DNA of 64,000 nt, from assembly GCA_019637855.1 (NCBI GenBank), contig JAHBUX010000002.1:62001-126000 (forward strand), in the 5' to 3' direction. The DNA comes from Bdellovibrionales bacterium. GTDB taxonomy: Bacteria; Bdellovibrionota; Bdellovibrionia; Bdellovibrionales; UBA1609. The translations under genes and the position numbers were made by a program. The notes beneath the pieces are model-generated. The model saw only the letters and a program-made list of their open reading frames with translations. It made no database searches and was not told the origin of the DNA. Positions 20,669 through 35,152 of the stretch are shown here, piece after piece; positions within the stretch are counted from its first letter, which is position 1, and each line of letters opens with the position of its first letter.

Positions 20669-21727
20669 ATGAAAGTGGCCGCACTTTTTCTCCTACTGGT
20701 TTTACCTGTGATGCCGGTGCACGCAGTGGACACCAGTGCGTCCTTGGCTGCGCAAGCTTTGCGCGTTTGCTTTCCAAAGCAACACGCCGACATCATGAAT
20801 TTTCTGGTCTATGTGGCCAAAGACCGCGGTTTTTTCGAGGCGCAAAAGCTGGATGTGAGTATCGAAACTCTTATTTTTAAGTTTCACGATTTCAGCGGGC
20901 CGGCCAAAAATTTTCAGATGGAGTCTTGGGAACAATCTAGAAATGGTTGGGGCAAGGTCTGTCACTTCTCTTCGCTCTCGGCGGGGGGCGCTTTAGGTAT
21001 GCTTCCCGAACGTATCGGTGAGGTGGTTCCGCTCTTACTCTCGCAGTACGACGCGCACAACGACATGGATTTAGTGGTGCGCGCCAGCTCGACGATCAAA
21101 TCTGTCGAGGGATTAAAAGGCAAAAGAATCAAAGTCGGAAATTTGCCTTCATTGATCAGTTTGACTGAGATTCTCAAGAGTCATGGGATGAAAGTCTCGG
21201 ATATCCTTATCCGTCCCGGTAATCAGAGCGAGCGTTTGATGGGCGGTCTTTCGGAAGGTAAACATGATGCCGGCTTCACGATGCCGCTGCTTTCCGATGT
21301 GTTCAAAACCCGCTCAAGCACTCGCACCTTGGAGTCCGGTGTGATCTCGCGCCATCTGAAAACTTTGCCGGGAGTTTTTTTGGTGGCTGAAGTCGGCTTT
21401 TACGACAGTCAACCACAGACAGTGAAAAAGTTTATGAAGGCTTTGGATGAAGCGCGTGCCTATGTGGAAAAACATCCCGAGGCTTTGCTGAAGTCCGCCG
21501 AATCCATGTTTGATCGCAGTCGCAAAAAGATGATGAAACTCACGCCGGAAGAACATGTGCGTGCCGGCCAGACTTTTGCCGGCGAGCGGCTTCTGGACAT
21601 GCGCAAGCCCGCGCAAGCCGAGCGGATGCAAGAAAAAATGAAGGATTACTACAAGCGCCTGGCGCAGGCCAGAATCTTGAACACGCCCTACAATCTGGAT
21701 GGTTGGGTAAGGACTCCGACAAAATGA
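20669..21727 (+). CDS. NMT1/SsuA-like periplasmic solute-binding protein
   Basis: A 352-residue exported protein. The signal peptide MKVAALFLLLVLPVMPVHA is followed by LRVCFPKQHADIMNFLVYVAKDRGFF, the typical first strand and ligand-loop of nitrate/sulfonate/thiamine-precursor binding proteins, and LKGKRIKVGNLPS in the second lobe. No ABC permease or ATPase is near. Instead the stop overlaps the start of a membrane glycosyltransferase (ATGA), an unusual pairing that suggests a linked role in the periplasm. The gene is divergent from the large transferase gene. Ligand unknown. Confidence 0.75.
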   Translation: MKVAALFLLLVLPVMPVHAVDTSASLAAQALRVCFPKQHADIMNFLVYVAKDRGFFEAQKLDVSIETLIFKFHDFSGPAKNFQMESWEQSRNGWGKVCHFSSLSAGGALGMLPERIGEVVPLLLSQYDAHNDMDLVVRASSTIKSVEGLKGKRIKVGNLPSLISLTEILKSHGMKVSDILIRPGNQSERLMGGLSEGKHDAGFTMPLLSDVFKTRSSTRTLESGVISRHLKTLPGVFLVAEVGFYDSQPQTVKKFMKALDEARAYVEKHPEALLKSAESMFDRSRKKMMKLTPEEHVRAGQTFAGERLLDMRKPAQAERMQEKMKDYYKRLAQARILNTPYNLDGWVRTPTK

Positions 21728-23130
21728 CGGTGCTGAACCGTTGGTTCGCCCCCATAGGCCTGCTCGCCTACATGTTGTTGCAGATCCCTTTTATCTGGAG
21801 CGATCAGCGTTACAACGGGTCGGAGGGAGTTTACTGGCAGGTGCTGCGCCAGTTGGCCTACGGCCGTGAACTTTACAGCGAAGTCTATTGCTCTCAATTT
21901 CCGTTGTTTATCGAGTTGGCTCGCCTGGGCCGCTTTTTGCCGCTGATGGACCTGACCGCGGCGCGCTTGCTGACCTCCTTGTTTGCGCCGTTGGCTCTAT
22001 GGGGATTTTACACTTTGTTGCGACGCTACTTTGATCGAAACACCTCCTTGCTGGCGGCGGCTCTTCTCGCCGTCGATCCGTTGTTTTTCAATCTGGCCCA
22101 CCAATTCACTGGCGAGATCCCGGGCCTGGCGCTGACGTTGTGGGGCGCTTACTTCTTTCTGCGCGCTCAAGACGGTGAGCGCAAATGGGCTTTGTTCAGC
22201 GCCGCCATTTTAAGTTTTTTCGTCGCCATTCAAATCAAGCAAGTCATGTTCTTGCTGCTGCTCACGTTCTGCGTATTGTGGATTAAAAACGCCGGTTTTC
22301 CCGGTAGGCAAAAGGCTTCGCGGGTAAGCGCTTTGATTTTGGGCGTGGGCCTGGCCAATGTGCTGTGCTTGTGGATTTATGGCTATCAAGAGGGTCAGGG
22401 GCTTAGGCAGATTCAGGGCGGCCACTTTTTGAACTTTTTAAGTGTGTTGTTCTCAACTCCGCACCATTTGCCCGTCGGTGAGAATATCGATGCCATTGCC
22501 ACCACGGCCGACTACTCGCGCATGTGGCTTTATGTCTCTGTCCCTTTATTTGCATTGTCGCTGGCGGTTCTATGGCGGCGCTATCACTTTATGCGCGATC
22601 TTTTGTTGGCCGCCGTACTTTTATCGGTGCCGCTATTTCTTTATGTGGTGATCAATCCAGATCACACGGTTTTGTATTCGCCGCTGATTGCACTTCCTCT
22701 GGCGCTGCTCATCGCTGAAAAACGCTTCGTGTTGCCCTATGTTTTTGTCGCCGCCGCCGTTTTGTTCAGCGGCAGTGAGTACAACTGGCGGTTCCCACGC
22801 GCCAATAAGCTGCAACGCCGATCGGTGCAGGCTCTGCAAGAGAACACCTCGCCAAGCTCGGTGGTGATGGGCAATGTGCCGTTTTCTATCACGGCGGCGG
22901 GGCGGCTGACGCCACCGCAGTTCACCGATCTGTCACCGGCCAGGCTAATCACACGTTCTGTCACTTGCGATATTTTGGAAGAACGGTTCCAGAAAGGCGA
23001 TGTAGAGGCATTTGTCTACCGTTTCAAGGGCATGGAGTGGGCCGATTGTCCGATGGAAGAATTGGTTCGTAAGTATTTTCCCAAAGTGGTTTACGAAGAC
23101 AGCAAGCAACTGATTTTTAAAGTTCGCTAG
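21724..23130 (+). CDS. GT-C-like membrane glycosyltransferase (predicted)
   Basis: About 468 residues with some ten membrane segments. The first loop reads YNGSEGVYWQVLRQLAYGRE, then YSEVYCSQFPLFIELA, a layout seen in GT39/GT83 lipid-linked sugar transferases. It is clearly a paralogue of the gene ending at 32540 on the other strand: both share NGSEGVYWQ, the VDPLFFNL-HQ-TGEIP segment and a C-terminal domain with SVVMGN and SVTCD/SVSCD. The ATG lies in an ATGA overlap with the solute-binding gene. It probably glycosylates a surface lipid or protein in the periplasm. The end overlaps the convergent HTTM gene by 14 bases. Confidence 0.65.
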   Translation: MTVLNRWFAPIGLLAYMLLQIPFIWSDQRYNGSEGVYWQVLRQLAYGRELYSEVYCSQFPLFIELARLGRFLPLMDLTAARLLTSLFAPLALWGFYTLLRRYFDRNTSLLAAALLAVDPLFFNLAHQFTGEIPGLALTLWGAYFFLRAQDGERKWALFSAAILSFFVAIQIKQVMFLLLLTFCVLWIKNAGFPGRQKASRVSALILGVGLANVLCLWIYGYQEGQGLRQIQGGHFLNFLSVLFSTPHHLPVGENIDAIATTADYSRMWLYVSVPLFALSLAVLWRRYHFMRDLLLAAVLLSVPLFLYVVINPDHTVLYSPLIALPLALLIAEKRFVLPYVFVAAAVLFSGSEYNWRFPRANKLQRRSVQALQENTSPSSVVMGNVPFSITAAGRLTPPQFTDLSPARLITRSVTCDILEERFQKGDVEAFVYRFKGMEWADCPMEELVRKYFPKVVYEDSKQLIFKVR

Positions 23131-24553
23131 CTTCGGCCACGGCCCGGCCTTCAGGCAGTTGGCAAACTAAGGCGGAACGCAGATCGGATGAGGGACGGCT
23201 GATCTGTCCCGGGGGGACCGTCGGATCATTGACCCAGTACACATCCACTTTGCGCAAGTGGCGGCCTTGCAGATCGCGACGATTATGGCAGAGGTACTGC
23301 GCCAGGCGATTGTCGATCGTGGGGTTGCCGTGCCGCCATTGAAATAGGAAGGCTGTCCAACGATAGTTGGGGTTGCGCGCGGCCACGTGGCCGGGTTCGG
23401 TCATGTTGATCGCACCTTCTTTATTGGTGAAAAGATCCACCATTTTTCCATCGACTGTGTGCCCGATCAGCATATGCCAACCATCGTCCAAATATGGGTG
23501 CGGCGCGAACAGGTCCCAAGCCTGATGCAGGCCCACGACGCGTAAAAAATCTCCGACCTTTTTCGGTAGATGTAAGGGGCGAGTGGGCATAGTGTGCACG
23601 GCGACCCACATCACCAGCGCGATAAAAAACATCGCCAATGGTTCCGCACATAGCGACCAACCGGCGGCGGCCGAGCGCTTGGCCTCTTGATAGCTGGGAA
23701 TTTGAAAAAATCGCGGCAGAGTGCGCAGCTTTTCCCAGAAAATGCTGGGTAAAGCCAAGGTCAAAAGCACGACATCAAAATAGGGGAAGAGTTGCAGGTT
23801 CAAGCAAAGCCCAAAAACGATGTGCATGAGAGCGTAAGCGCTGACAATGCCGAGTCGCCATAAACCTCGTTCTGCCGTGACAAAGAGAAGAATCCAGCCA
23901 AAGCGCTCAAGAACAAAAACCACGCGTGTTCCCCACTCGAGGAGTGTCGGATAACCGGTTAGAAATTTTCCCAGTGGGGTGACATAGGCGTCACCCTGCA
24001 TGGCTAGGTAGCTGGCAATCGGATTGTCCCACCACATGTCCGTGGATTTGGCGAAACCGGCAATGGCATAGAGAACCACGACCTGCAGCAGAACCGCAGC
24101 TGAGATCCCGTCGGAAAAAACGGTTTTGCTTTCACCCTCTTTGCGTCCTGGCGGCAGGAACACGGACCAGAAGCAGAGCATCTGCAAAAGTTTGTCAGAG
24201 CCGTAGAAGATGTACGGCGAGCGAAAGATAAACATTTGCACTAGGAAGAACGCCAGCAAAGACACTAAGCGCGGCCACTTATTGAACAGCAGCAGAGCGC
24301 CAAGGCTCGCCATGAAAAGCAACCACAACGCTGGCCACCACCAACCGGCGAAGAGATTCAAAGGCGTCCATACTTCAAATCCTCGCCGCAGCAAAAAGAT
24401 CATAGAACGTGGATAAAGACCGGCGTCGGTGAAAAAATCATTAATGGCAAAAGAAAGACAGAACGCCTCCAGAATCAGCCCTAGACCGAGTCCGATCCTA
24501 AACAGACGTAAGGACCTGTAATCTATGGCGAAGGCCTGCTTCAATGTCTCCAT
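23117..24553 (-). CDS. HTTM-domain membrane protein
   Basis: A 478-residue multispanning protein with HTTM features, the fold shared with vitamin K-dependent gamma-carboxylase: RSLRLFRIGLGLGLI near the start, then FFTDAGLYPRS, and YIFYGSDKLLQMLCFW and NPIASYLAMQG further on. About eight to ten membrane segments are followed by a soluble C-terminal part (HQAWDLFAPHPYLDDGWHML). In bacteria these proteins are mostly of unknown function. I chose the ATG giving METLKQAFAIDY; a TTG eight codons earlier is possible. It is divergent from the prepilin operon and convergent with the membrane transferase. Confidence 0.75.
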   Translation of the reverse strand: METLKQAFAIDYRSLRLFRIGLGLGLILEAFCLSFAINDFFTDAGLYPRSMIFLLRRGFEVWTPLNLFAGWWWPALWLLFMASLGALLLFNKWPRLVSLLAFFLVQMFIFRSPYIFYGSDKLLQMLCFWSVFLPPGRKEGESKTVFSDGISAAVLLQVVVLYAIAGFAKSTDMWWDNPIASYLAMQGDAYVTPLGKFLTGYPTLLEWGTRVVFVLERFGWILLFVTAERGLWRLGIVSAYALMHIVFGLCLNLQLFPYFDVVLLTLALPSIFWEKLRTLPRFFQIPSYQEAKRSAAAGWSLCAEPLAMFFIALVMWVAVHTMPTRPLHLPKKVGDFLRVVGLHQAWDLFAPHPYLDDGWHMLIGHTVDGKMVDLFTNKEGAINMTEPGHVAARNPNYRWTAFLFQWRHGNPTIDNRLAQYLCHNRRDLQGRHLRKVDVYWVNDPTVPPGQISRPSSDLRSALVCQLPEGRAVAEASEL

Positions 24554-24633
24554 ATGAGTCAGGATAAAGGGTTGCAACGAGAGCGCAAAGTGCTTTCACC
24601 TCGGGTGCATGTTTCGCTTTGAGAAACTGCGTC

Positions 24634-24679: not shown

Positions 24680-25591
24680 ATGCTGAAGCGGCTACCACTT
24701 TTAAATCAGGCAGGGTCCAGTATCCTTCCGGTCTTGATGATCGCGGGAATTCTTGCCGCTATGATCGCGGGACTTACCGTACTGTATGACAGTTTGAGTA
24801 CAGCTGCGGGCCGTAGCGATATCCGCGCCGAAGCCGATCAGATTTTCCGCCATGCGGTCACTATCTTAAGTCAGCCGGGAATGTGTGCGGGCGCCTTGCG
24901 GGGCGGGCCTGGTTCGGCCGCCGCTTCGAACCAACGCGTGGTTTACAATGCCACCACCGGCGCTGAGATTCAGCAGATTCAAATCAATCCCAATCCGTCG
25001 AGCACGGGAGCTGTGGCCCTTTATCGCACACAAGTGTTTGGCGGCGGGCAAGGGCGTCTTGAGATCTTTGAAATGCGCATGCGCCCGTTTCGTGCGGATG
25101 AGCGTACGGCCCCATTCGTTGAACCGCCTTCGGGCGGAAGTACCACGGTGAATCTCGGCTATGGTGATTTGACTCTGCAAGCCCGCGCGGCCAAGTTCAC
25201 TATGCGTTTTAAGATCTATGACCGCGGCGGCATGGGTGGAGATTCACTTGAGCGCACCGCTACTTTTCTGGTGGGTGTGGACGGCAGCGGAACGATTCAC
25301 GACTGTTGGAACACGCAGCAGGCGAAAATCACCAACTTCCGATGCACGCAAGCGACACTCTCAGCCCCGGTGGCGAGCAACCGCTGCGACAACGAGCCGG
25401 CCACCGATCCGCTGTGCCGTAACATCTACTACATCAAAGGCATCGATGCGTTGGGAAATCCGATCTGCCGTTGTGAAACGACGTGCACATCGTTTGATCC
25501 GAACCGTCCTGCGCCTGTTCCTCCCGCTGGCCAGTCGACGCAGACGGCGATAGCTCCCACGCCTATGCCGGGACCGGGGGGGAGTAGATGA
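24680..25591 (+). CDS. prepilin-like exported protein, first of three
   Basis: 303 residues. A short charged leader ends in Gly12, followed by SSILPVLMIAGILAAMIAGL, the shape of a type IV prepilin N-terminal helix, but Glu at position +5 is replaced by Pro. Residues 55-75 (FRHAVTILSQ, then MCAGALRG) and the C-terminal YYIKGIDALGNPICRCETTC recur in modified form in the next two genes, so the three are paralogues. A Pro-rich tail ends the protein. It probably sits in the inner membrane with its body in the periplasm, as minor pilins do. No strong ribosome site is seen. It is followed by the second gene in an ATGA overlap. Confidence 0.7.
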   Translation: MLKRLPLLNQAGSSILPVLMIAGILAAMIAGLTVLYDSLSTAAGRSDIRAEADQIFRHAVTILSQPGMCAGALRGGPGSAAASNQRVVYNATTGAEIQQIQINPNPSSTGAVALYRTQVFGGGQGRLEIFEMRMRPFRADERTAPFVEPPSGGSTTVNLGYGDLTLQARAAKFTMRFKIYDRGGMGGDSLERTATFLVGVDGSGTIHDCWNTQQAKITNFRCTQATLSAPVASNRCDNEPATDPLCRNIYYIKGIDALGNPICRCETTCTSFDPNRPAPVPPAGQSTQTAIAPTPMPGPGGSR

Positions 25592-26421
25592 AGTCTTTGA
25601 AGATTTCCGGTCCAACAAATCAAAAAGGATTTTCATTGATTGAAGCCATGGTGGCGGTGGCTATCTGTGGCGTGGTCGTATCCGCGATGGCGACGGTGTA
25701 TGTGGCCATGCGAGACAACTTGGTGCGCGATCAGGCCTTTCGCGAGGCCGAGAGTTTACGCGCCTATGTTCAGGGCATTTTAAATCAATCCGCTTTGTGC
25801 TCGGGCGCCATGCGCTCAAGCGGCGGCCCTCCTTCCTGGGTCAATCCGGCGGCGGAGAATTCACGTTCCAGCGATATCACCGATATTCAAGCGGTGGACA
25901 CCGCCACGGGTATGGGCGGGACAACGGTTCTGAGCGCGGGACAAAATTATTCTAACAATCTGCGCATCGTCCGTATGTATTTGCGCAAACCCATCAATAC
26001 TCCTCAGCACAGCGAAGGCATTGCCTCCACGCAACCCTATCAGATGGATCGAGGAGTGGCAGGGGTTCAGGCAATGACATTGGTGCCCGCCAAGCTGGTG
26101 ATTGAATCTCAAATGCGAACTGCGTTTCCGACCAGCACTGCGACCATTTCGCGCATTGTGGATGTGGGCGTGGCCGTGAACGATGCGACCAATGAGGTGC
26201 AGTTTTGTTTTAACAATCTGCGCTCGCTGAATCCGACTTCCTATAGTTGCAACTCCACGACGGTAAATCCGAACTACCTTTGCTATTTTCAACCGCGCTG
26301 CCACTACTGGTACTATATCGCCGCATTTGACGCGTCTGGAAATGCGGATTGTCGCTGCGCCACAAGCTGTAGCGAAGTGAGCATTCTGGAATTCAAAGGG
26401 ACTGCGCGCGCCAGTCGCTAG
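25588..26421 (+). CDS. prepilin-like exported protein, second of three
   Basis: 277 residues with a textbook class III signal: NQKG14 then FSLIEAMVAVAICGVVVSAM, giving cleavage after Gly14 and Glu at +5. This is the one member of the trio with that glutamate. The shared features follow: LRAYVQGILNQSALCSGAM (Cys71) and, near the end, YIAAFDASGNADCRCATSC. It should be processed by a prepilin peptidase encoded elsewhere. Start overlaps the first gene by four bases. By analogy with pseudopilins it could be part of a short pilus tip or a secretion apparatus; no assembly ATPase or secretin is in the window. Confidence 0.85.
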   Translation: MKSLKISGPTNQKGFSLIEAMVAVAICGVVVSAMATVYVAMRDNLVRDQAFREAESLRAYVQGILNQSALCSGAMRSSGGPPSWVNPAAENSRSSDITDIQAVDTATGMGGTTVLSAGQNYSNNLRIVRMYLRKPINTPQHSEGIASTQPYQMDRGVAGVQAMTLVPAKLVIESQMRTAFPTSTATISRIVDVGVAVNDATNEVQFCFNNLRSLNPTSYSCNSTTVNPNYLCYFQPRCHYWYYIAAFDASGNADCRCATSCSEVSILEFKGTARASR

Positions 26422-26489
26422 AGTTCTCGCCAAAATTTACTTGCCATTGACTGAGCCGCCACGCTCTCATAACGAGTGGAGTGTGGCCG

Positions 26490-27590
26490 GTGAAAATTAA
26501 TGCGCGCGGGTTCAATTTAGTTTCGATCGTCGCCGCGCTGGCGGTCTTTTCATTTCTCATGGCTACCGTATCTTTGCTTTACAAAAACATTGTTGAGATG
26601 GGTTTACAGGCGGAAGTGTCGCATGACATGGATAGCTTGGCGCATACGGTGCAAGATATTTTATCCAGCAACGTTTTGTGCAACAGAGCCTTGCGCCAAC
26701 CGACCACGCCGAGCCCTACCGGTTATGTGGTTTGGCCTGCCGGTGGTGAGGGCGTGATCGGCTCGATTCAAACCAACAATGGTCAAACACCTCCCGTGGT
26801 GATCGTGTCCACCGCTGCGCCCAACAATCGCATCGGAAAAGTTCTGATCCAAAGCATGGTCCTACGCTATCCCAATCAGGCGGCGGGAATTATGGAAGGT
26901 AGCCCGGCCCAATCTTCGGTGCAGATCAATGGCGAGAACTACGATGTCATCACGGCCAAAGTTCAAATCAATTTCACTTGGGCTATGAGCCCGGGCAGTA
27001 TTCCGCCCAATCTTCCGAGTGGTTTGTTCCGCCCGCGCACGATGGATGTGACAGTGTCGGTGCATCGGCCCAGCAACCAAGTGCGCTTTTGCTTCCAGGA
27101 GTCGCTTACTCAGCTGGTCAGTGAGCCCTGCAATGCGGTTACGAGTGGTGGCACCATGGCCTATTGCACGCCCACGGCGCCGGGCTGTCAGATTCATTAT
27201 TTCTTGGCTGGGTTTGACGCCAACTCTCGGCCGATCTGTGATTGCCGTATGACTTGTCCCTCTGCCGGTAGTGGTGGAGGCAGCGGTAAGGGTGGCGCTG
27301 CTTCACTCTTTGCCGGTCAAGCGGCGGCAGGCGCCCTTGGCGGCGGTGCGACCGGCTCCTTTGGCGCGGCTCCTGGTGGAGCGGCTGCGGTGGGTATCGC
27401 GGGCGGCGCGGGTGTGATGGGCGCAGGAGCTGCCGGTGCCGCAGCGGCAGGAGCAGGCGGAGCGGCTAGTGGGGCGGGTGCTCCGAGCGGAGCGGCCGGT
27501 GTGTTGGGAGGAGCTGGTCCTTATGGCGCCGGTCCTGGTGGGGCCGCCGTCGGCGCTGCGGCCGCCGCCGGTGCCGTGTATTCGAACTGA
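26490..27590 (+). CDS. prepilin-like protein with Gly/Ala-rich tail, third of three
   Basis: 366 residues from the GTG giving MKINARGF; GGAG lies eight bases upstream, while a GTG three codons earlier lacks a proper site. Gly7 precedes FNLVSIVAALAVFSFLMATV, a prepilin-like helix with Ser at +5. HTVQDILSSNVLCNRAL (Cys64) and FLAGFDANSRPICDCRMTC are the family marks. The final 95 residues are almost only Gly, Ala and a few Ser/Pro, like silk or other low-complexity structural proteins. A 68-base gap separates it from the second gene; TTGACT with CATAAC there is a faint promoter resemblance. Confidence 0.75.
   Translation: MKINARGFNLVSIVAALAVFSFLMATVSLLYKNIVEMGLQAEVSHDMDSLAHTVQDILSSNVLCNRALRQPTTPSPTGYVVWPAGGEGVIGSIQTNNGQTPPVVIVSTAAPNNRIGKVLIQSMVLRYPNQAAGIMEGSPAQSSVQINGENYDVITAKVQINFTWAMSPGSIPPNLPSGLFRPRTMDVTVSVHRPSNQVRFCFQESLTQLVSEPCNAVTSGGTMAYCTPTAPGCQIHYFLAGFDANSRPICDCRMTCPSAGSGGGSGKGGAASLFAGQAAAGALGGGATGSFGAAPGGAAAVGIAGGAGVMGAGAAGAAAAGAGGAASGAGAPSGAAGVLGGAGPYGAGPGGAAVGAAAAAGAVYSN
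27265..27587 (+). repeat. low-complexity Gly/Ala coding repeat in the third prepilin gene
   Basis: This GC-rich stretch is built from GGN and GCN codons and encodes short units such as GAGAAGAAAAGAGG and GPYGAGPGG. The repeats are imperfect, so slipped-strand length change is possible but not shown. Confidence 0.8.
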
Positions 27591-27601
27591 GAGGATGACT
27601 T

Positions 27602-28198
27602 ATGATAAATAAAATATGTTTTTCTCTATTGCTGCTTTTCTCCAGCTTTGGCCGGGCTGAACAATTGAAACAGGGCTACTCCATTGACCCCTCGTTGGGA
27701 TTCTCTACCGTGGAAACCCGCGGGCAAAGCGCCGATTCGCGGGGCTTCTTCTGGCGAGGAGAGAGAGAGGGACTCGAGGTTTCCGTGCGTGGCACCACAC
27801 TGGACTCCGTGCAAGAGGCGCGTGAACTTTCCAATGTGGAGTTCAACAACATCGCCAATCTGTATGGCAAGCGTGGCAATCCTTACGAAGGGCAGATCTC
27901 GTCGCTTGTTTCGTGCGACAAAATCTTTCAGCCCAAGCCGTCGCGGGTGAAGGTGCAAGGAGTATCGCGCCCGGCGCTCTTAGTCGGAGCCAATAGCCGC
28001 AAGAGTTTCGGCGCCTGCACGGCAGATCAAATCGCTTACTGGGCCGCCTACTACAACTATGTCGATGAAGAATCGAAAACGGTGTTCTCGGTGCGCATTT
28101 TTAAAAAGATGTCCGCGCCCAGCGCCAAGCAGATCGCGGAGGCCAATCGTGATCTCACCGAAATCGCGGCAAAGGTGTTAACTAAGGCTGTGAAGTAA
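27602..28198 (+). CDS. exported protein of the prepilin operon, unknown family
   Basis: 198 residues with signal peptide MINKICFSLLLLFSSFGRAE and a ribosome site AGAGGAT six bases before the ATG. The mature domain is mixed alpha/beta with two cysteines (SLVSCDKIF and FGACTADQ), which could form a disulfide; it includes YWAAYYNYVDEESKTVFSVRIFKK. I recognise no family. It lies 11 bases after the Gly/Ala-tailed prepilin and abuts the sulfatase gene (the stop and next ATG are adjacent), so it is firmly within the operon and probably works in the periplasm with the prepilins. Confidence 0.65.
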   Translation: MINKICFSLLLLFSSFGRAEQLKQGYSIDPSLGFSTVETRGQSADSRGFFWRGEREGLEVSVRGTTLDSVQEARELSNVEFNNIANLYGKRGNPYEGQISSLVSCDKIFQPKPSRVKVQGVSRPALLVGANSRKSFGACTADQIAYWAAYYNYVDEESKTVFSVRIFKKMSAPSAKQIAEANRDLTEIAAKVLTKAVK

Positions 28199-29623
28199 AT
28201 GCGCCAGAGGGTCGTCCGTGTCGTTGCTCTGCTCTTGGTGATCTTCCTATGCTCCGGTTACACGGCGCTGACCTTTTGGCCCGAGCCGCCGCAAACCCGA
28301 CCCAATGTTTTGATCATCAGTCTCTGCTCTTTTCGCTACAAAATGTTGCAGGAGTACAACCACACGACTGAGTCCATCATGCCGGCGATGGACAGGTTTT
28401 TTGCCGCCAGTTCTTTTGTCTTCGAAAACATTTTCAATGGCATGCCCTGGACCGCGCTGTTTTCAACGGCGCAGTCCGTTCTTCCGGGATGGGAGATTGA
28501 GCGTATGCTGTACACACGCTATGTGAACAGCAGTCGTGATTATATCATCCGGGTTCCGCATCGCGAATCGTGGCTGCATCCGCCCAGCGCTCGTATCGAC
28601 GACAATGACTTCGAAAAAAACCATTCGCAAGAAACAGAGTTTATCCGCCGCTCGTTGTTGAAGCCGGAGTCGCGGCCGTTCTTTATGCTGGCGCACTATA
28701 AGTATATGCACTATCCGCTGATCGATCGTTTCAACGCGGATTCCGAGTGGGACTACTATCTCAGCAAAGAAGAAAAGGCGCTGGTTGCTGAGTACAGCGC
28801 TCATCCTGGCAAGTATCCTGATAAACTGCCGTTCCTTCTTCTGCTCACCAACAGTGATGAAGTGCCTTTAGCCAATCCGCGCATCACCGCCGATATGGAT
28901 CGGCGCCAGATCCCGAAGAACACGCGCAGTGAGAAGGCCTACAAGTTTAAAGGCCTGCTCACCGATCCCGCCTTTCTCGCCGCTTGGAAGAACAGTCCGG
29001 GTTATGAGAAAGACCTCGTGCTGTTGGAGAAGCTCTATAAGGCCAACGCTCGCTATTTGGATAAAGTTTTGGCCCCTGCTCTCAATCTATGGGGCGATAA
29101 AGAGTTGCAGCGTACGACAGTAGTGATGGTCACCGGTGATCACGGCGAGATGCACATGGAACACGATATGCTTACACATGCGCATTCACTCTACGACGAA
29201 GTCTTGCGTATCCCTTTGGCCATTCGCTTTCCGGGCCATCGCGCTCCGGTGCGCATAGAGGAGCAAACGCACTTCCGTCCGGTGGCGCAACTGCTGCGCG
29301 GCGTTCTCAGTGGGACGGTGGATGCTGAGAATTTCGAGAAGTCTTTCCGCAAGGTACAAGACGACGCTGTGGTGCTTAGAAACTGCACCAACACCAAACG
29401 GGGAGTGCGTTACAAGAACCAGTACAAATACATATTCGATGTCGCAGAAGACCGCCCCTACCTTTATGACTTGAAAAAAGATCCGGGCGAGAATGAGAAT
29501 ATTGCGGATGCCAATATGGAAATGGTCGACAAGTTCGAAACCATGTTCTGGAAACTCTATCCGGACTTCAAAACCGTGGATCACGGCGATTGTTTGGGTG
29601 CCGGCGATAGCGGCGGGGAGTAG
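28199..29623 (+). CDS. membrane-anchored sulfatase/alkaline-phosphatase-fold protein with altered metal site
   Basis: 474 residues: one N-terminal membrane helix, then a periplasmic sulfatase-like domain. NVLIISLCSFRYKML at 36-50 aligns with the usual ISxDxLRxDxL strand, but the first metal-binding Asp is Cys43 and the later Asp is Lys48. The second half is regular: MPAMDRFFA, VTGDHGEMHMEHDML with the metal Asp and His, and HSLYDEVLRIPLAIRFPG. The fold is thus clear, while the metal centre is incomplete, so it may be inactive, use another chemistry, or act as a binding protein. It starts directly after the upstream stop and is followed by a GTG-started gene without gap. Confidence 0.75.
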   Translation: MRQRVVRVVALLLVIFLCSGYTALTFWPEPPQTRPNVLIISLCSFRYKMLQEYNHTTESIMPAMDRFFAASSFVFENIFNGMPWTALFSTAQSVLPGWEIERMLYTRYVNSSRDYIIRVPHRESWLHPPSARIDDNDFEKNHSQETEFIRRSLLKPESRPFFMLAHYKYMHYPLIDRFNADSEWDYYLSKEEKALVAEYSAHPGKYPDKLPFLLLLTNSDEVPLANPRITADMDRRQIPKNTRSEKAYKFKGLLTDPAFLAAWKNSPGYEKDLVLLEKLYKANARYLDKVLAPALNLWGDKELQRTTVVMVTGDHGEMHMEHDMLTHAHSLYDEVLRIPLAIRFPGHRAPVRIEEQTHFRPVAQLLRGVLSGTVDAENFEKSFRKVQDDAVVLRNCTNTKRGVRYKNQYKYIFDVAEDRPYLYDLKKDPGENENIADANMEMVDKFETMFWKLYPDFKTVDHGDCLGAGDSGGE

Positions 29624-30190
29624 GTGCGAGTGAGCCAGCGCGTTTTGGCCCTGGCTTTGACCGGCGCAGTTTTAATTTTACTGACATTTAGTTTCGTCCA
29701 CATGGTTCGCGCTTCGGCCTCTGACAATGCGAAGTTCGAAGGCAAGGTGAATGCGGGTCGTGCTTTTATGTACGTCGCCCGCTCACTCAACATGCCAGCC
29801 AAATGCTCAACCGCTTTGGTTCCTCTGCTGAAAGAGTGGAATCGCCAATCGGCGCAGAACTTCACCTATTTGGACACCAAGGTGCAGCTGCGTCCACGCC
29901 AGATTGGTGATGTGAGTGTTCGCCCGTCGGCCGAACTGGTCGTGCTCTCTGAATACGGAGAACGCGCGTTGCCTTTGCATTTAGCGATCGGACCAACCGG
30001 CGAGATTATTGGCTGCGCAGTCGATGAGCATGCCGTACGCTACATGCTGGGTTCCGCCATTTATGCCAGCGACAAATGTTTCGAGCCCGCTCGCACCACG
30101 CAGTGGTTTGTTCGCTGTCCCGCCACCACTTTTCTGAATCGGGATGTGGTGAGGGGCACATTCTGGTGCTGTCCATTGAGGGGCGGTTGA
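29624..30190 (+). CDS. single-pass protein related to the operon's prepilins, unknown function
   Basis: 188 residues from a GTG directly after the sulfatase stop. The N-terminal helix VLALALTGAVLILLTFSFV is membrane-spanning but lacks a clear prepilin peptidase site. FMYVARSLN followed by AKCSTAL (Cys61) parallels the ILxxxxxCxxAL mark of the three prepilin-like proteins, at nearly the same distance from the membrane. The C-terminus has further cysteines (KCFEP, VRCPA, WCCPL). I infer a distant fourth member or a partner. The stop overlaps the next ATG by one base (TGATG). Confidence 0.55.
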   Translation: MRVSQRVLALALTGAVLILLTFSFVHMVRASASDNAKFEGKVNAGRAFMYVARSLNMPAKCSTALVPLLKEWNRQSAQNFTYLDTKVQLRPRQIGDVSVRPSAELVVLSEYGERALPLHLAIGPTGEIIGCAVDEHAVRYMLGSAIYASDKCFEPARTTQWFVRCPATTFLNRDVVRGTFWCCPLRGG

Positions 30191-30900
30191 TGCGAGCTCT
30201 CTATGCTTTTGTGATCGTCCTGGTTTCTTTTAGCTGCATGGTCTATGAGCTGACTTTGGCACAGACCAGCTCTTTGCTGTTGGGCAATGCGCTCGTCAAC
30301 TACAGCGTCACGATCTGTATTTATCTTGCCGGTTTGGGAGTGGGTTCGCTGCTGTTTATGCGTTACAACTCCGAGAGTGCGGGACCACTGCTTCTCAACA
30401 CGGAAATCGTTTTGAGTTATCTGGGACCTTTGGCACCGATTCTCGCTTTGTTGGTGGAGTTTAGTTTGCGTCAGGTAGTGATGCCTGGAAGTTTAGCGTA
30501 CTTCTTCGTTTTACAGAGCACGATGTATGTATTGGTGGCTTTGGTGGGCATTCTCTCTGGCCTTGAACTGCCGATTATGATTTCGCTGGGAGAAACGCGC
30601 TTTCGTATGCAATCGGGCGCTGTTTTGGGGTTGGATTATCTCGGTACGTTGGTTGCCATCGCGGCGTTCCCCACGGTGGGATTGGGAATGTTGGGGCTGT
30701 TCGGCACGGCCGCCTTGGCTGGCGTGGGCAGCTGGGGGGGAGCGGTGATGACTTGGTTGGCTTTACCGCCCGCGCAGCGCCATCGGTGGCAGTTGGTGTT
30801 GCTGGCGCCTTCGTTGGCGCTGGTCATGGCGATGCTCGCGTTCGGACCGGAGCTGCGCGAATTTATGAGTCAGTCGATCTATCTGGCGGGGGACAAATGA
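30190..30900 (+). CDS. membrane protein related to the membrane half of spermidine-synthase-like proteins
   Basis: 236 residues, about seven hydrophobic segments, no soluble domain. VTICIYLAGLGVGSLL, GILSGLELPIMISLG and DYLGTLVAI match equivalent points of the next protein (VTLACYIASMGLGSYLG, GFLSGLELNLLLRIG, SYAGTVAAT), so it is a paralogue of that protein's membrane part without the synthase domain. I chose the ATG in a TGATG overlap; earlier starts would run inside the preceding gene. It may form a heterodimer with its neighbour in the inner membrane. Confidence 0.7.
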   Translation: MRALYAFVIVLVSFSCMVYELTLAQTSSLLLGNALVNYSVTICIYLAGLGVGSLLFMRYNSESAGPLLLNTEIVLSYLGPLAPILALLVEFSLRQVVMPGSLAYFFVLQSTMYVLVALVGILSGLELPIMISLGETRFRMQSGAVLGLDYLGTLVAIAAFPTVGLGMLGLFGTAALAGVGSWGGAVMTWLALPPAQRHRWQLVLLAPSLALVMAMLAFGPELREFMSQSIYLAGDK

Positions 30901-32543
30901 TCAATGACCGCCTGCGCATGTGGACCGTGATTTGGATGGCGGCTGTGAGTTCGGCGTTTGGCCTGGTGTACTCGCAGCTGTTGGTGAAGGTGTTGGCCTC
31001 GATCACCTCGCAGTTTATGCTGTCACAGACGGTGACGTTGGCTTGTTATATCGCTTCGATGGGGCTCGGTTCTTATCTCGGAGATCGAGTGCGCGAAGCC
31101 AAGGTGGCCCGTCGTTTGCCGCAGATTCAATTGTACTCGTCGGCCGTGGGCTTGACCATGGTTCTGTTCGCCTACGTGCTCTATATGTTTTTGAAATTTT
31201 ATTTTGTCGAGATCAGCGATCCGCGTGAGCGCGAGTGGCTGCGTTCGCTGGCCTGGATGATGGTAACGCTGGCGCAACCCGCGGCTTTGATCACTGGATT
31301 TCTCTCCGGCCTTGAACTCAATCTGCTCCTGCGCATTGGAAAGCGCTTGGCGCCAGAGACCGGCTACAGCAAAGTTTTAGCTGGTAGTTACGCGGGCACC
31401 GTGGCGGCAACCTTGATCTTTATCTGGGTGATGCCGCAATTCACACCGATGGCGACGGGCTTAGGATTGGCGGCCGCCAATTTGCTTTTTTCTCTTTATC
31501 TGGCGTGGACTTTTTTAGACGGGGAGCGCGAGCTCACTGTTCACTGCGCGTGGGCCGCGGGCGTGAGCGTACTGATCGCTTTGTTGTGCGGCTATCTGCC
31601 TTTCTTAAGCCAAATGCACTACAAGAGTCGCGAACTGCAAGGCGTGCAGCTGCAAGCACTCAAGGATTTTGTGCCGTTTGTGACCGAAGTTTTACCTCAA
31701 CGACCGGAGATGTTTCGTCACAGTACGCCTTATCAGAACGCCGACATCATGTTTGGCGCCGACGGCGGCTTTCGTTTTCTTTTGGATTATCACCCGCAGA
31801 TTGAATACGTTTGGAACGCCGAATATCACGAGGCTTTCGTTCATGCGCCGATTCAATACTCGCGCGAAATTCCGCGCGAGGTTTTGGTCTTGGGTGGTGG
31901 CGACGGTGGCACGGCCGCTGAATTGCTGAAGTACAAGGAGGCTGTGGACCACATCGATCTGGTGGAGTTGGATCCGTGGATGATCCATTTCGCTAAGACC
32001 GCACCTCTGTTTTTGGATTTCAATCACGGCGCCTTCAACGATTCTAAGGTTCGCATTTTCAATCAGGATGCGATTACCTACTTACGTACTACGGACAAAA
32101 AGTACGACGCAGTCTATGTGGATTTTCCATTCCCGTTTGAGACGGAGCTGGTGAAGCTCTTTAGTGTCGAGTTCTACAAGATGACGGCCAAAGCTTTGAA
32201 GCCTGGCGGTCAGCTAGTGGTTGACGCTCCTGCCGGATGCGCCAAGACCGATCCGCTGGAGGGCAACTCGGGCACTTGGCGCACCAGTGTGATGTTGTCT
32301 TTGCGCGTAGCCGGATTCAAAACCGTTTTCCCTTTTTGCTCCGTGAACGGCTTTGTGATGGCTCGTCTGGACGAACGCCCTCCGGCCGAGGGCTATCATG
32401 ACTACGGTATTCCGCTGCAACTTATGAACGCGGCTTTCCTGGAAAACATCATCACCTGGAAGCGTGGCCCTGAAAAACGCTGGCGGGGTAAGATCAATAG
32501 CATGTTCAAACCACTCTCCCCTTTGCGCCCGCGGCATTTCTAG
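30897..32543 (+). CDS. membrane-fused spermidine-synthase-like protein
   Basis: 548 residues: seven or so membrane segments (1-240), then an aminopropyltransferase-type Rossmann domain (about 271-490). Motifs are well kept: TPYQ at 277-280, NAEYHEAFVH near 307-316, VLGGGDGG at 331-338, VELDP at 356-360, NQDA at 389-392, and the catalytic-loop Asp409 in YVDFPFP, where the common DP is FP, then FSVEFYK. Known relatives make spermidine or modify unknown molecules with SAM-type cofactors. ATGA overlap with the half-size paralogue; last gene of the operon. Its stop shares CTAG with the convergent transferase. The true product is open. Confidence 0.8.
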   Translation: MINDRLRMWTVIWMAAVSSAFGLVYSQLLVKVLASITSQFMLSQTVTLACYIASMGLGSYLGDRVREAKVARRLPQIQLYSSAVGLTMVLFAYVLYMFLKFYFVEISDPREREWLRSLAWMMVTLAQPAALITGFLSGLELNLLLRIGKRLAPETGYSKVLAGSYAGTVAATLIFIWVMPQFTPMATGLGLAAANLLFSLYLAWTFLDGERELTVHCAWAAGVSVLIALLCGYLPFLSQMHYKSRELQGVQLQALKDFVPFVTEVLPQRPEMFRHSTPYQNADIMFGADGGFRFLLDYHPQIEYVWNAEYHEAFVHAPIQYSREIPREVLVLGGGDGGTAAELLKYKEAVDHIDLVELDPWMIHFAKTAPLFLDFNHGAFNDSKVRIFNQDAITYLRTTDKKYDAVYVDFPFPFETELVKLFSVEFYKMTAKALKPGGQLVVDAPAGCAKTDPLEGNSGTWRTSVMLSLRVAGFKTVFPFCSVNGFVMARLDERPPAEGYHDYGIPLQLMNAAFLENIITWKRGPEKRWRGKINSMFKPLSPLRPRHF

Positions 32544-33946
32544 AAAAAGATCAGAGTGCGGGCGTCGTCGTAGGCTAGGCGGGGGAAGTGGGTGCGTATG
32601 ACGTCTTCGATGGTGCGGCCGGGGCAAGGCAGTCCCTCCAGGCCTTTTTTCACCATGGCCACGGCGCTGATACCGCCTTGCTTGAGACGCTCTTCGATAC
32701 TGTCGCAAGAGACTGAGCCGGTGACGGCGCGCGCGGCGGAGAAGTCGGTGTACTCGGGCGGCGTTAGGCGGTCGACAGACGTGATCAAAAACAAATTGTT
32801 GCCCATGACCACGGAGCCCTGTGGCGCTACAGACCGCAACGCTTGGCGAGCCCGCACCTCACGCTTGCGTGGTTGTGGAAGAGTCCAATTGAATTCCCAC
32901 GCGGTCACCAGCAAACAAGCGGCGATAAAAACTGTGGCGACAAAACTGTAACCGGGTGGTTGGCGCGCCAATACCAAGGCCATTGCAAAGGCGACGATGG
33001 GCGTGAACACAATCAAGTGATCCGTGTTAACGCGAACATAGAACAAGAAGAAGGCAAGACACAGAGCGCTTGCCACAATCAAAGGTTCGACCATACGTTG
33101 TTCACCACGACGGTATAGATAGATCAACGACAGCAGCAGAGCGGGTAAGCTGAACATCCACATTCCCACCGAATAGTCGTAGCCATCCAATACAGCATGC
33201 AGATTGGTCGCCATATTAAATGAAAATGGAGAGCTCAGAAACTGCCGCACCAAGCCGCCTTGCAACTGTGCAAGTCCGCCGTGGGCCATCCAGCCACCCC
33301 AATAGAGACACAACATATTGGTGACAACGCTACCGACGAAAAGTACCGCCACGACTTTCACACGCTCACGACTTGTGCCGCCAGCGAACATTATCCATAG
33401 CACACCTGTGATCAAAAGCGGCAAGGCCATCAACGCTTTAAGCTGAATAGCGGCGCCAAACAGAACTGCCGCGGCAGTCACATTCAAAAGTTGAGAGCGG
33501 CGCAATGGTTTTTCAACCAATAAAACCACAGCCCACAAGGCCGATGCCAACGAGGGGATTTCGCCAGTGAGTTGATGTGAGAGATTGAAAAACAACGGGT
33601 CCACCGCCACCAACACGACACACATCGCAGCAGTTTTCTCAGAGGCCCAGCGTCTGGCCAAACGATAAGTCGCCCATAGCGCCAGAGGAGCAAAGGCCAG
33701 CACGATCAAGCGCGCGGCGTACAGATCTAAAAACGGAGCGAACTGGGACAGTGACGTCAATCGAATAAACAGTGGCCATTGAGAATAAAAAATGTCCGCG
33801 TACAGCTCGCGTCCTGCTTGGAGCTGTCGCAACGTCTGCCAATACACGCCTTCCGAGCCGTTGAAATAATCGAGAAGAAAACAGAAAGGCAGTTGTACGG
33901 CGACATAGACGGCCGCGCCCAAAATCAAATACGGCCGCATGTTCAT
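32540..33946 (-). CDS. GT-C-like membrane glycosyltransferase (predicted), paralogue of the 21.7 kb gene
   Basis: 468 residues from the ATG preceded by GGAGGA with seven bases spacing; a longer frame is not needed. About ten hydrophobic segments. FNGSEGVYWQTLRQLQAGRE at 28-47 and YADIFYSQWPLF mark the first periplasmic loop, and the soluble tail includes SVVMGNNLF and SVSCDSIEERL. The same marks occur in the transferase that starts at 21724, so the two are duplicates flanking the prepilin region. Predicted to transfer a sugar from a polyprenyl carrier. It shares a 54-base divergent promoter region with the GT-B gene. Confidence 0.65.
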   Translation of the reverse strand: MNMRPYLILGAAVYVAVQLPFCFLLDYFNGSEGVYWQTLRQLQAGRELYADIFYSQWPLFIRLTSLSQFAPFLDLYAARLIVLAFAPLALWATYRLARRWASEKTAAMCVVLVAVDPLFFNLSHQLTGEIPSLASALWAVVLLVEKPLRRSQLLNVTAAAVLFGAAIQLKALMALPLLITGVLWIMFAGGTSRERVKVVAVLFVGSVVTNMLCLYWGGWMAHGGLAQLQGGLVRQFLSSPFSFNMATNLHAVLDGYDYSVGMWMFSLPALLLSLIYLYRRGEQRMVEPLIVASALCLAFFLFYVRVNTDHLIVFTPIVAFAMALVLARQPPGYSFVATVFIAACLLVTAWEFNWTLPQPRKREVRARQALRSVAPQGSVVMGNNLFLITSVDRLTPPEYTDFSAARAVTGSVSCDSIEERLKQGGISAVAMVKKGLEGLPCPGRTIEDVIRTHFPRLAYDDARTLIFF

Positions 33947-34000
33947 CTTAACGTCCTCCGATTTGACTGGGGTGCCTCTCAAAGATAAAAACATAGATGC

Positions 34001-35152
34001 GTGCAAGTGAAAAGCCCGGAATCAATTCTCATCTGCTGTGCTGGTTTAGGAATGGGCAACGCCTCCCGTGCGGTGGCTTTGATGGAGTCTCTACACAGCC
34101 AAGCGGGTGGTGGATCAGTACAGCATTTTCACGTCGCCAGTTGGGGCGCTGGCTACAAATTTCTCAGAAGTTATCAGGAAAAATCCACGCGTAGCGATTT
34201 CACTTTCGATCTGACTGAACTGAAACCCTACTCTATATCGCGACCGGCCACGGGGTTGATCAATTATCTGCGCAACACGCGCACATTGAGACGCTTGATG
34301 CGTATGTTACAGCCATCATTGATTGTTCTGGATTCGGACTACCATTTTCCTGCTTATGGACGGCGCAGGGGCGCGTTGATCTCCTTAGGGCAAGCCGAAG
34401 ACGTTTTGGAGCGTGCCAACCGCTACCCCGATTTGGTCACCAACTGGCGACAGTATTTCAATCTGCAGTGGCGCGAACGCCTGGATGCCTGGCTACAGAG
34501 CTTATTCTCGGACTTAGTGCTAGTGCCCTGTTTCGATCCGAAGACTTCTACCGGCTCGCGCGCCTCTCTACGTCGCGCACGTAAACTCGTGCGCATTCCG
34601 CTGATCGTACGCCAGGAGTTTCTCAACCCGCTGCCGCCGGTAGCGCCCACCGCTGTGGCCGGACTCTTGTTGAGCGGTTCCGAACTTGAAAAACAACCGT
34701 TTCTGGACTTTGCTGCTCGCCATAGTTGGCCTGTATTGGCGCCCGGTGAGGGTTCGTCGGTGGAGCTTTCGCAGGCGGCCGCACTCGACAGTTTTGATTT
34801 TGTGCTTACGCAAGGCGGTTTAAGTTCGATCTCGGAATGCATTGCGCGCGGCCGCTTCGCTGTGATCTTTCCACTGCAGGATCATCCCGAGCAAATGTTG
34901 AATGCGCGGGCGGCAGAAGCTCTAGGCGTGGGTCTACAAGCCGATGTGCGCGAGCTCGCTCGTTTGCCGGCACTGCTTGAGCGCATCGGTCGCGCCCGCA
35001 TCCGTTCTCCACGCCGTCGTCCTGAGTGCGATGGCGCGCACGTGGCGGCTCGTGTGCTGAATGAGGTGCTGACGAAAGTTAAAAAGAAAGACTACGCAAC
35101 ATATGCAGCGCTTCGACCTTCTCGCTCGAGCTCAGGGGTTGCTGCGCTTTGA
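34001..35152 (+). CDS. GT-B/MurG-like glycosyltransferase family protein
   Basis: 383 residues with a two-lobed GT-B look. The N-terminal ILICCAGLGMGNASRAVALME holds the Gly-rich loop of MurG/GT28-like enzymes; the C-terminal lobe has FVLTQGGLSSISECIARGRFAVIFP, where GGLSSISE is the nucleotide-sugar site, then DHPEQMLNARAAEALG. No signal peptide, so cytosolic or membrane-associated. The GTG start is tentative, since another GTG lies two codons on and no clear ribosome site is present. Divergent from the GT-C gene, which suggests a common glycan pathway. The last 74 bases overlap a convergent small gene. Confidence 0.75.
   Translation: MQVKSPESILICCAGLGMGNASRAVALMESLHSQAGGGSVQHFHVASWGAGYKFLRSYQEKSTRSDFTFDLTELKPYSISRPATGLINYLRNTRTLRRLMRMLQPSLIVLDSDYHFPAYGRRRGALISLGQAEDVLERANRYPDLVTNWRQYFNLQWRERLDAWLQSLFSDLVLVPCFDPKTSTGSRASLRRARKLVRIPLIVRQEFLNPLPPVAPTAVAGLLLSGSELEKQPFLDFAARHSWPVLAPGEGSSVELSQAAALDSFDFVLTQGGLSSISECIARGRFAVIFPLQDHPEQMLNARAAEALGVGLQADVRELARLPALLERIGRARIRSPRRRPECDGAHVAARVLNEVLTKVKKKDYATYAALRPSRSSSGVAAL

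Follow-up and report, generated by a model that had tools for sequence, protein, structure and literature searches.

In a 64,000-nucleotide stretch of contig JAHBUX010000002.1 from a Bdellovibrionales bacterium (hereafter the window), we identified an operon of eight genes, here called A to H (positions 24680-32543), in which prepilin-like proteins are encoded together with G and H, the two membrane parts of a putative enzyme (GH) of the spermidine synthase (SpeE) fold. We put the probability of the following explanation at roughly 0.4: the prepilin-like proteins would be minor pilins, G and H would form an aminopropyltransferase facing the outside of the cell, and D and E would be an accessory addition. 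The gene content, the co-conservation, the active-site changes of the enzyme and the separate origin of D and E come directly out of the computation, and the acceptor of the enzyme and its biological role are guessed. An earlier note, made from the sequence of the window, had proposed a periplasm-facing apparatus in which pilins or glycans are modified by polyamine-type transfer. The company that prepilins keep with G and H agrees with this interpretation, and a core role for the sulfatase-fold protein E is not supported.

The identity of H (30897..32543, + strand) is clear at the level of fold, as it matches the aminopropyltransferase domain PF01564 at 98 bits (cut-off 23; E 7.7e-28), and its AlphaFold model (pLDDT 79) consists of seven long membrane helices followed by a SpeE domain. 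This model resembles the SpeE structure 7xif (Foldseek E 1.7e-11), with the C-terminal half of H aligning with SpeE. G (30190..30900, + strand) is a seven-transmembrane (7-TM) homologue of H's membrane half, recognised by a family profile and by the N-terminal half of NF002956, the membrane polyamine aminopropyltransferase (E 1e-25), so that the pair of membrane proteins described earlier, one of them with an aminopropyltransferase domain, is borne out. Like the proteins of NF002956/PRK03612 (COG4262), H carries seven TM helices and then a SpeE fold with the GGGDG motif and the first catalytic Asp. Unlike them, GH has an obligate second 7-TM partner in G, with which H is fused in several relatives, as well as linked prepilins and acyltransferase-3 (AT3)-like proteins, and in a comparison with NF002956 H reaches 227 bits, below the equivalog cut-off of 472, and G 90 bits.

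The active site sets the two groups further apart. H keeps the GGGDG, VELD and DA motifs and the first Asp of DxxDP (D336, E357, D391 and D409), and the second Asp of the latter motif is replaced by Phe (F412, in VDFPFP). Throughout the GH family the GGGDG Asp and the first Asp are invariant, and the acids that contact adenine and ribose are retained. Whereas the canonical acceptor motif D-[FLMV]-P-D-[PA] is present in 83/83 membrane homologues from many phyla, all but two of the 40 GH members have D-[FL]-P-[FYLH]-P, the exceptions being L218, which retains DFPDP, and an aberrant second copy in L198. In addition, the canonical Gln at position 443 has become Asp in nearly all GH members, and most have gained a C-terminal Asn...Pro motif. 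Our reading is that the GH family has probably kept its donor site and changed its acceptor site. As the second Asp of DxPDP is lost and a new Asp appears elsewhere, free putrescine is unlikely to be the acceptor. When the diagnostic columns were removed from the alignment, the canonical proteins still formed one supported clade with the GH proteins outside it, in a tree where some deep forks are weak and the window sequence sits on a long branch.

Which genes travel with the enzyme was assessed by searching for relatives with H and comparing the gene neighbourhoods of 40 GH-family loci with those of 83 canonical membrane synthases, using two prepilin profiles (P1 and P2) built from eight relatives' loci. 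P1 or P2 prepilins lie within 6 kb at 26/40 GH loci and at 0/83 loci of canonical membrane spermidine synthases; among the loci outside the profile-building set, the count is 18/32. The check on co-conservation that had been suggested with the original proposal is positive for prepilins, G and H. Prepilins were recognised by motif only at four further GH loci (L209, L211, L227 and L218). In relatives with a window-like H, G stands beside H almost always, separate or fused, and most of these loci have two Cys-rich prepilins, a P1 of the GFSLIE type and a P2 of the GSAL type without Glu5, accompanied by F258, which has one TM helix, and in some cases by K, which is exported. The linkage persists across homologues that are 20-30% identical and between loci with differing outer flanks. 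The GH family is divergent and spread over the Bdellovibrionota, and among the matches listed for the best 80 loci of a contig scan it occurs in only two, both Bacteriovoracaceae. No system with these parts was recognised at the outset, and none turned up in the papers that could be searched: searches on Bdellovibrio and spermidine, and on prepilin and spermidine synthase, found no description of it, and the main text of a transposon-sequencing paper does not mention it.

A second companion of the enzyme is a membrane protein of 350-380 amino acids, found within 8 kb at 34/40 GH loci against 0/83 canonical loci. The R/K-x10-H motif of AT3 proteins is present in 34/39 of these partners, and PF01757 matches one of them below its cut-off and none of the others; the partner is probably, though not certainly, AT3-like. 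No homologue of it is encoded in the window genome. AT3 proteins acylate extracytosolic glycans and are a known analogue of group transfer across a membrane (PMC12423673). GH resembles these AT3/TmAT proteins in its proposed cytoplasmic donor and outside acceptor, and in having an AT3-like gene as its usual neighbour, but its fold and chemistry are unrelated.

The side of the membrane on which the enzyme would work can be predicted from its helices. Over 125 sequences of both families, Lys and Arg are enriched in loops 2-3, 4-5 and 6-7 (2.8/3.6/2.6 in canonical and 3.5/2.4/2.2 in GH proteins, with 0.1-1.4 in the remaining loops), a distribution that puts the N-terminus in the cytoplasm and the catalytic domain on the far side of the membrane. 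The G-H fusions have about 13 helices (6+7), as if the last helix of G had been lost with the orientation retained. Furthermore, where the S-adenosylmethionine (SAM) decarboxylase domain SpeD is fused to G, it sits on the N-terminal end that is predicted to be inside, and its substrate is cytoplasmic. We infer that the SpeE-fold domain of H lies outside the cytoplasm; the positive-inside counts, the 6+7-helix fusions and the seven-helix model thus favour the periplasm-facing orientation put forward in the earlier note. Modification of the N-terminus of mature pilins by GH was considered and is disfavoured, as that N-terminus faces the cytoplasm, opposite to the predicted position of the SpeE domain.

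Taken together, A, B, C and possibly F would be minor-pilin-like proteins, rich in Cys, that work with a pilus or type II secretion system (T2SS)-type machine encoded elsewhere. G and H would together make up one aminopropyltransferase-like membrane enzyme, with its SpeE-fold domain outside the inner membrane. Cytoplasmic decarboxylated SAM (dcSAM) would be brought across, or presented at the outer face, by the 7+7-helix membrane part, comparable to AT3 with acyl-CoA, and the aminopropyl group would be passed to an extracytoplasmic acceptor other than free putrescine. The most likely acceptors would be the pilin-like proteins encoded alongside, or else a glycan that is linked to these proteins or leaves the cell together with them; the prepilins, where present, are our best guess. 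A precedent for a 7-TM, SpeE-fold enzyme that modifies secreted proteins is the fungal methyltransferase NHMT, discussed below. That the two-subunit enzyme attaches the aminopropyl group of dcSAM to pilin-like proteins or surface glycans, which would be a protein or envelope modification not described before, is a tentative proposal that we would hold to be somewhat unlikely as it stands.

Several points weigh against this explanation. Since the GH proteins and the canonical ones fall on opposite sides of one tree, comparing 40 with 83 loci amounts to a single evolutionary contrast and not to many. Loci of the Bacteriovoracaceae type encode the enzyme, an AT3-like protein and a large exported protein, and no prepilins, so pilins cannot serve as acceptor at every locus. 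The local version of the module, missing the AT3-like partner, may be reduced. A periplasmic aminopropyltransferase requires dcSAM outside the cytoplasm, for which we know of no precedent.

The likeliest alternative is that G-H and AT3 act on an exported polysaccharide, lipid or cell-wall polymer, with the prepilins serving as an unmodified, pseudopilus-like exporter or surface partner. The frequency of the AT3-like neighbour and its motif, the activity of AT3 proteins on extracytosolic glycans (PMC12423673), the prepilin-free Bacteriovoracaceae-type loci and the PMT-type glycosyltransferases flanking the window operon all speak for such a role. However, prepilin co-conservation is strong at the other loci, and AT3 is absent from the very genome under study. 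We regard this alternative as rather doubtful.

The nature of the donor bears on a second alternative, in which G-H would be an outer-face, SAM-dependent methyltransferase. The model for this is the fungal N-terminal histidine methyltransferase NHMT (AN4663), whose substrates are secreted proteins in the endoplasmic reticulum (PMC10349129). NHMT shares the overall plan of H, 7-TM and SpeE-like domain, and works in a periplasm-equivalent compartment. In the GxG(D/E)G motif, the acid is the residue that binds dcSAM, and it is replaced in NHMT, which has Ile (PMC10349129), but Asp is kept in H and all relatives. NHMT also differs in using SAM, in lacking a G partner and in its unrelated substrate. 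Moreover, SpeD is fused or adjacent at about eleven loci: Bacteriovoracaceae-type loci carry it as an N-terminal fusion to G (PF02675 E 1.1e-17; about nine loci), and in genome G056 a SpeD gene lies ~2 kb downstream of the module. A methyltransferase is unlikely in light of this, and the putative dcSAM pocket and the SpeD fusions fit the polyamine-type transfer originally proposed, with dcSAM as the inferred donor. Genes in which a SpeD domain is joined to a seven-TM protein, and which immediately precede a membrane SpeE-like gene, were seen in L085 (8638-9705), L203, L204 and L206. Zero matches to PF02675 in the window genome had suggested that it makes no dcSAM; this was ruled out by a eukaryotic-type SAM decarboxylase (PF01536 E 2.2e-65), whose gene overlaps that of a canonical soluble SpeE (L083, 6490-8282).

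Alternatively, G-H could be catalytically dead and serve as a membrane scaffold, sensor or transporter for a pilin-like complex. The altered acceptor site and the complete loss of the catalytic domain from G are in line with this, but the donor-site residues and catalytic Asp are invariant at 20-30% identity and the new Asp is itself conserved, which makes a dead enzyme decidedly improbable. It is more improbable still that H is an ordinary membrane spermidine synthase supplying polyamine to the envelope or for export, its linkage to prepilins being incidental. While its fold and dcSAM pocket do match SpeE, the second DxxDP Asp is lost in nearly all members, Gln has turned into Asp, the NF002956 score falls well short, and the canonical loci have no prepilin linkage; since the window genome has its own SAM decarboxylase and soluble SpeE, H is not needed for spermidine.

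Three prepilin-like paralogues open the operon, as first described. B (25588..26421, + strand; NQKG↓FSLIEAM) is a Cys-rich prepilin of the P1 family (PF07963 E 3.5e-8; P1 profile E 1e-13) and the only protein of the four to show the G↓F(S/T)LxE site with a hydrophobic helix that defines type IV prepilins. A (24680..25591, + strand; NQAG↓SSILPVLM), prepilin-like without Glu5 and with a Cys-rich C-terminal domain, has no Pfam match and is recognised by the P2 profile from relatives only (E 2e-6). C (26481..27590, + strand; NARG↓FNLVSIV) is likewise Cys-rich and counts as a prepilin through the relatives' profiles, in its case P1 (E 7e-10). A C-terminal Cys motif is common to A, B and C. The division of these three between the three-prepilin cluster of the congener G002 and the P1/P2 pair gave no clean assignment, and a structure model of B from the three window sequences (pLDDT 35) was not used. 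The single-TM protein F (29624..30190, + strand), earlier called a cryptic prepilin relative, lacks the peptidase site, matches the P2 profile weakly (E 0.0018, among 14 window proteins) and shows, by eye, a C-terminal Cys pattern. That it is a degenerate P2-type prepilin is plausible, though weakly supported and not proven.

Prepilin-like proteins of unusual form or setting were seen as well. The last ~95 residues of C form a long Gly/Ala-rich tail that the relatives do not have. On contig 24 of the same genome (L058, 6795-9273) lies a prepilin pair, one of the GFSLIE type and one of the KGSSMITM type (574 amino acids), without G-H. In Bdellovibrio-type genomes, very long Cys-rich prepilin-like proteins (970-1100 amino acids) occur near G-H (L209, 2194-5253; L211; L227; L218, 9233-12556).

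A domain search of the cluster proteins found no secretin, assembly ATPase, platform protein or prepilin peptidase, in agreement with the absence of secretin, ATPase and peptidase reported before. Elsewhere, the window genome encodes eight T2SSE-family ATPases and two prepilin peptidases; the ATPase loci include, on contig 2, a T2SS locus with five pseudopilins and, on contig 25, one that is pilB/pilT/pilC/pilS/pilR-like (both by reading). Because assembly ATPases and peptidases are provided elsewhere, A-C appear to be minor pilins serving a machine that the genome already has. The module of G056 is immediately adjacent to pilB-pilT-pilC-pilS-pilR, its F258 beginning right after pilR, and this position ties the module to the type IVa pilus. 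As such, the operon resembles the minor-pilin operons of type IVa pili and the pseudopilins of T2SS in having several prepilins with their machinery elsewhere, and A, without Glu5, resembles the pseudopilin GspK. It differs from those operons in the Cys-rich C-terminal domains, the membrane transferase and the lack of a PilY1-like gene.

Could all eight genes, including the sulfatase-fold protein, then be one dedicated apparatus, as first suggested? Their organisation is tight: the coordinates confirm eight open reading frames, all on the + strand, with gaps of at most 59 bp or overlaps (A/B overlap 4 bp; B-C 59 bp; C-D 11 bp; D-E 0; E-F 0; F/G overlap 1 bp; G/H overlap 4 bp), and promoter- or terminator-like matches inside the operon are no more than in shuffled sequence. 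The membrane-anchored sulfatase-fold protein E (28199..29623, + strand) is confirmed by PF00884 (49 bits, cut-off 25) and keeps the second metal motif, DHGE, of the sulfatase/alkaline phosphatase superfamily. In an alignment with paralogues, however, the first metal-ligand Asp is Cys throughout its subfamily (S-x-C-S-[LF]-R), and the nucleophile position holds Thr, Ile or Gln and not Cys/Ser; adding 3b5q to the paralogues, E has neither the C/S-x-P-x-R nucleophile nor the metal-ligand Asp of type I sulfatases. By its sequence, E is not a standard sulfatase. D (27602..28198, + strand), an exported protein of no recognised fold, has homologues adjoining E homologues in L071-L076 and L078 and is always found with E-type proteins; a profile search gave no match to the 250-amino-acid F258, and the idea that the two are related was dropped.

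Six other D-E loci, spread over three genomes, lack prepilins, and the two congeners that have a GH locus, G001 and G002, have no D-E there. Being usually away from prepilins and absent from the congener GH loci, D-E behaves as an accessory cassette, and we conclude that it is a separate one that joined the operon in the window lineage. The eight genes are not one conserved system. One E in G002 (L076, contig 110) does stand beside three Cys-rich prepilins like those of the window, so that the association recurs once; a single dedicated apparatus of all eight genes is nonetheless very unlikely. In G002 the D-E pair is expanded to several copies (L072-L076).

The window genome measures 3.37 Mb, with a completeness of 99.98%. 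The PMT-type glycosyltransferases on either side of the operon are two paralogues (PF13231) at 21703-23130 (+) and 32540-34006 (-). Third beside this pair is a large membrane protein (18237-20588) with a homologue in G002 near the D-E locus L075, and a further membrane protein (23117-24577, -), without a Pfam match, is by eye HTTM-like (vitamin K-dependent carboxylase-like).

The known role of polyamine enzymes is to make free polyamines in the cytoplasm. The changed acceptor site, the second membrane subunit, the SpeD fusion in one lineage and the prepilin company of GH in another point to aminopropyl transfer as a modification of envelope or protein. By the predicted topology, the COG4262 proteins, which are widespread and little studied, may likewise have their catalytic domain outside the cytoplasm. 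The Bdellovibrionota include the predatory Bdellovibrio, whose predation needs pili, and GH is a concrete candidate for an enzyme that would alter pilin tips or surface polymers in this phylum.

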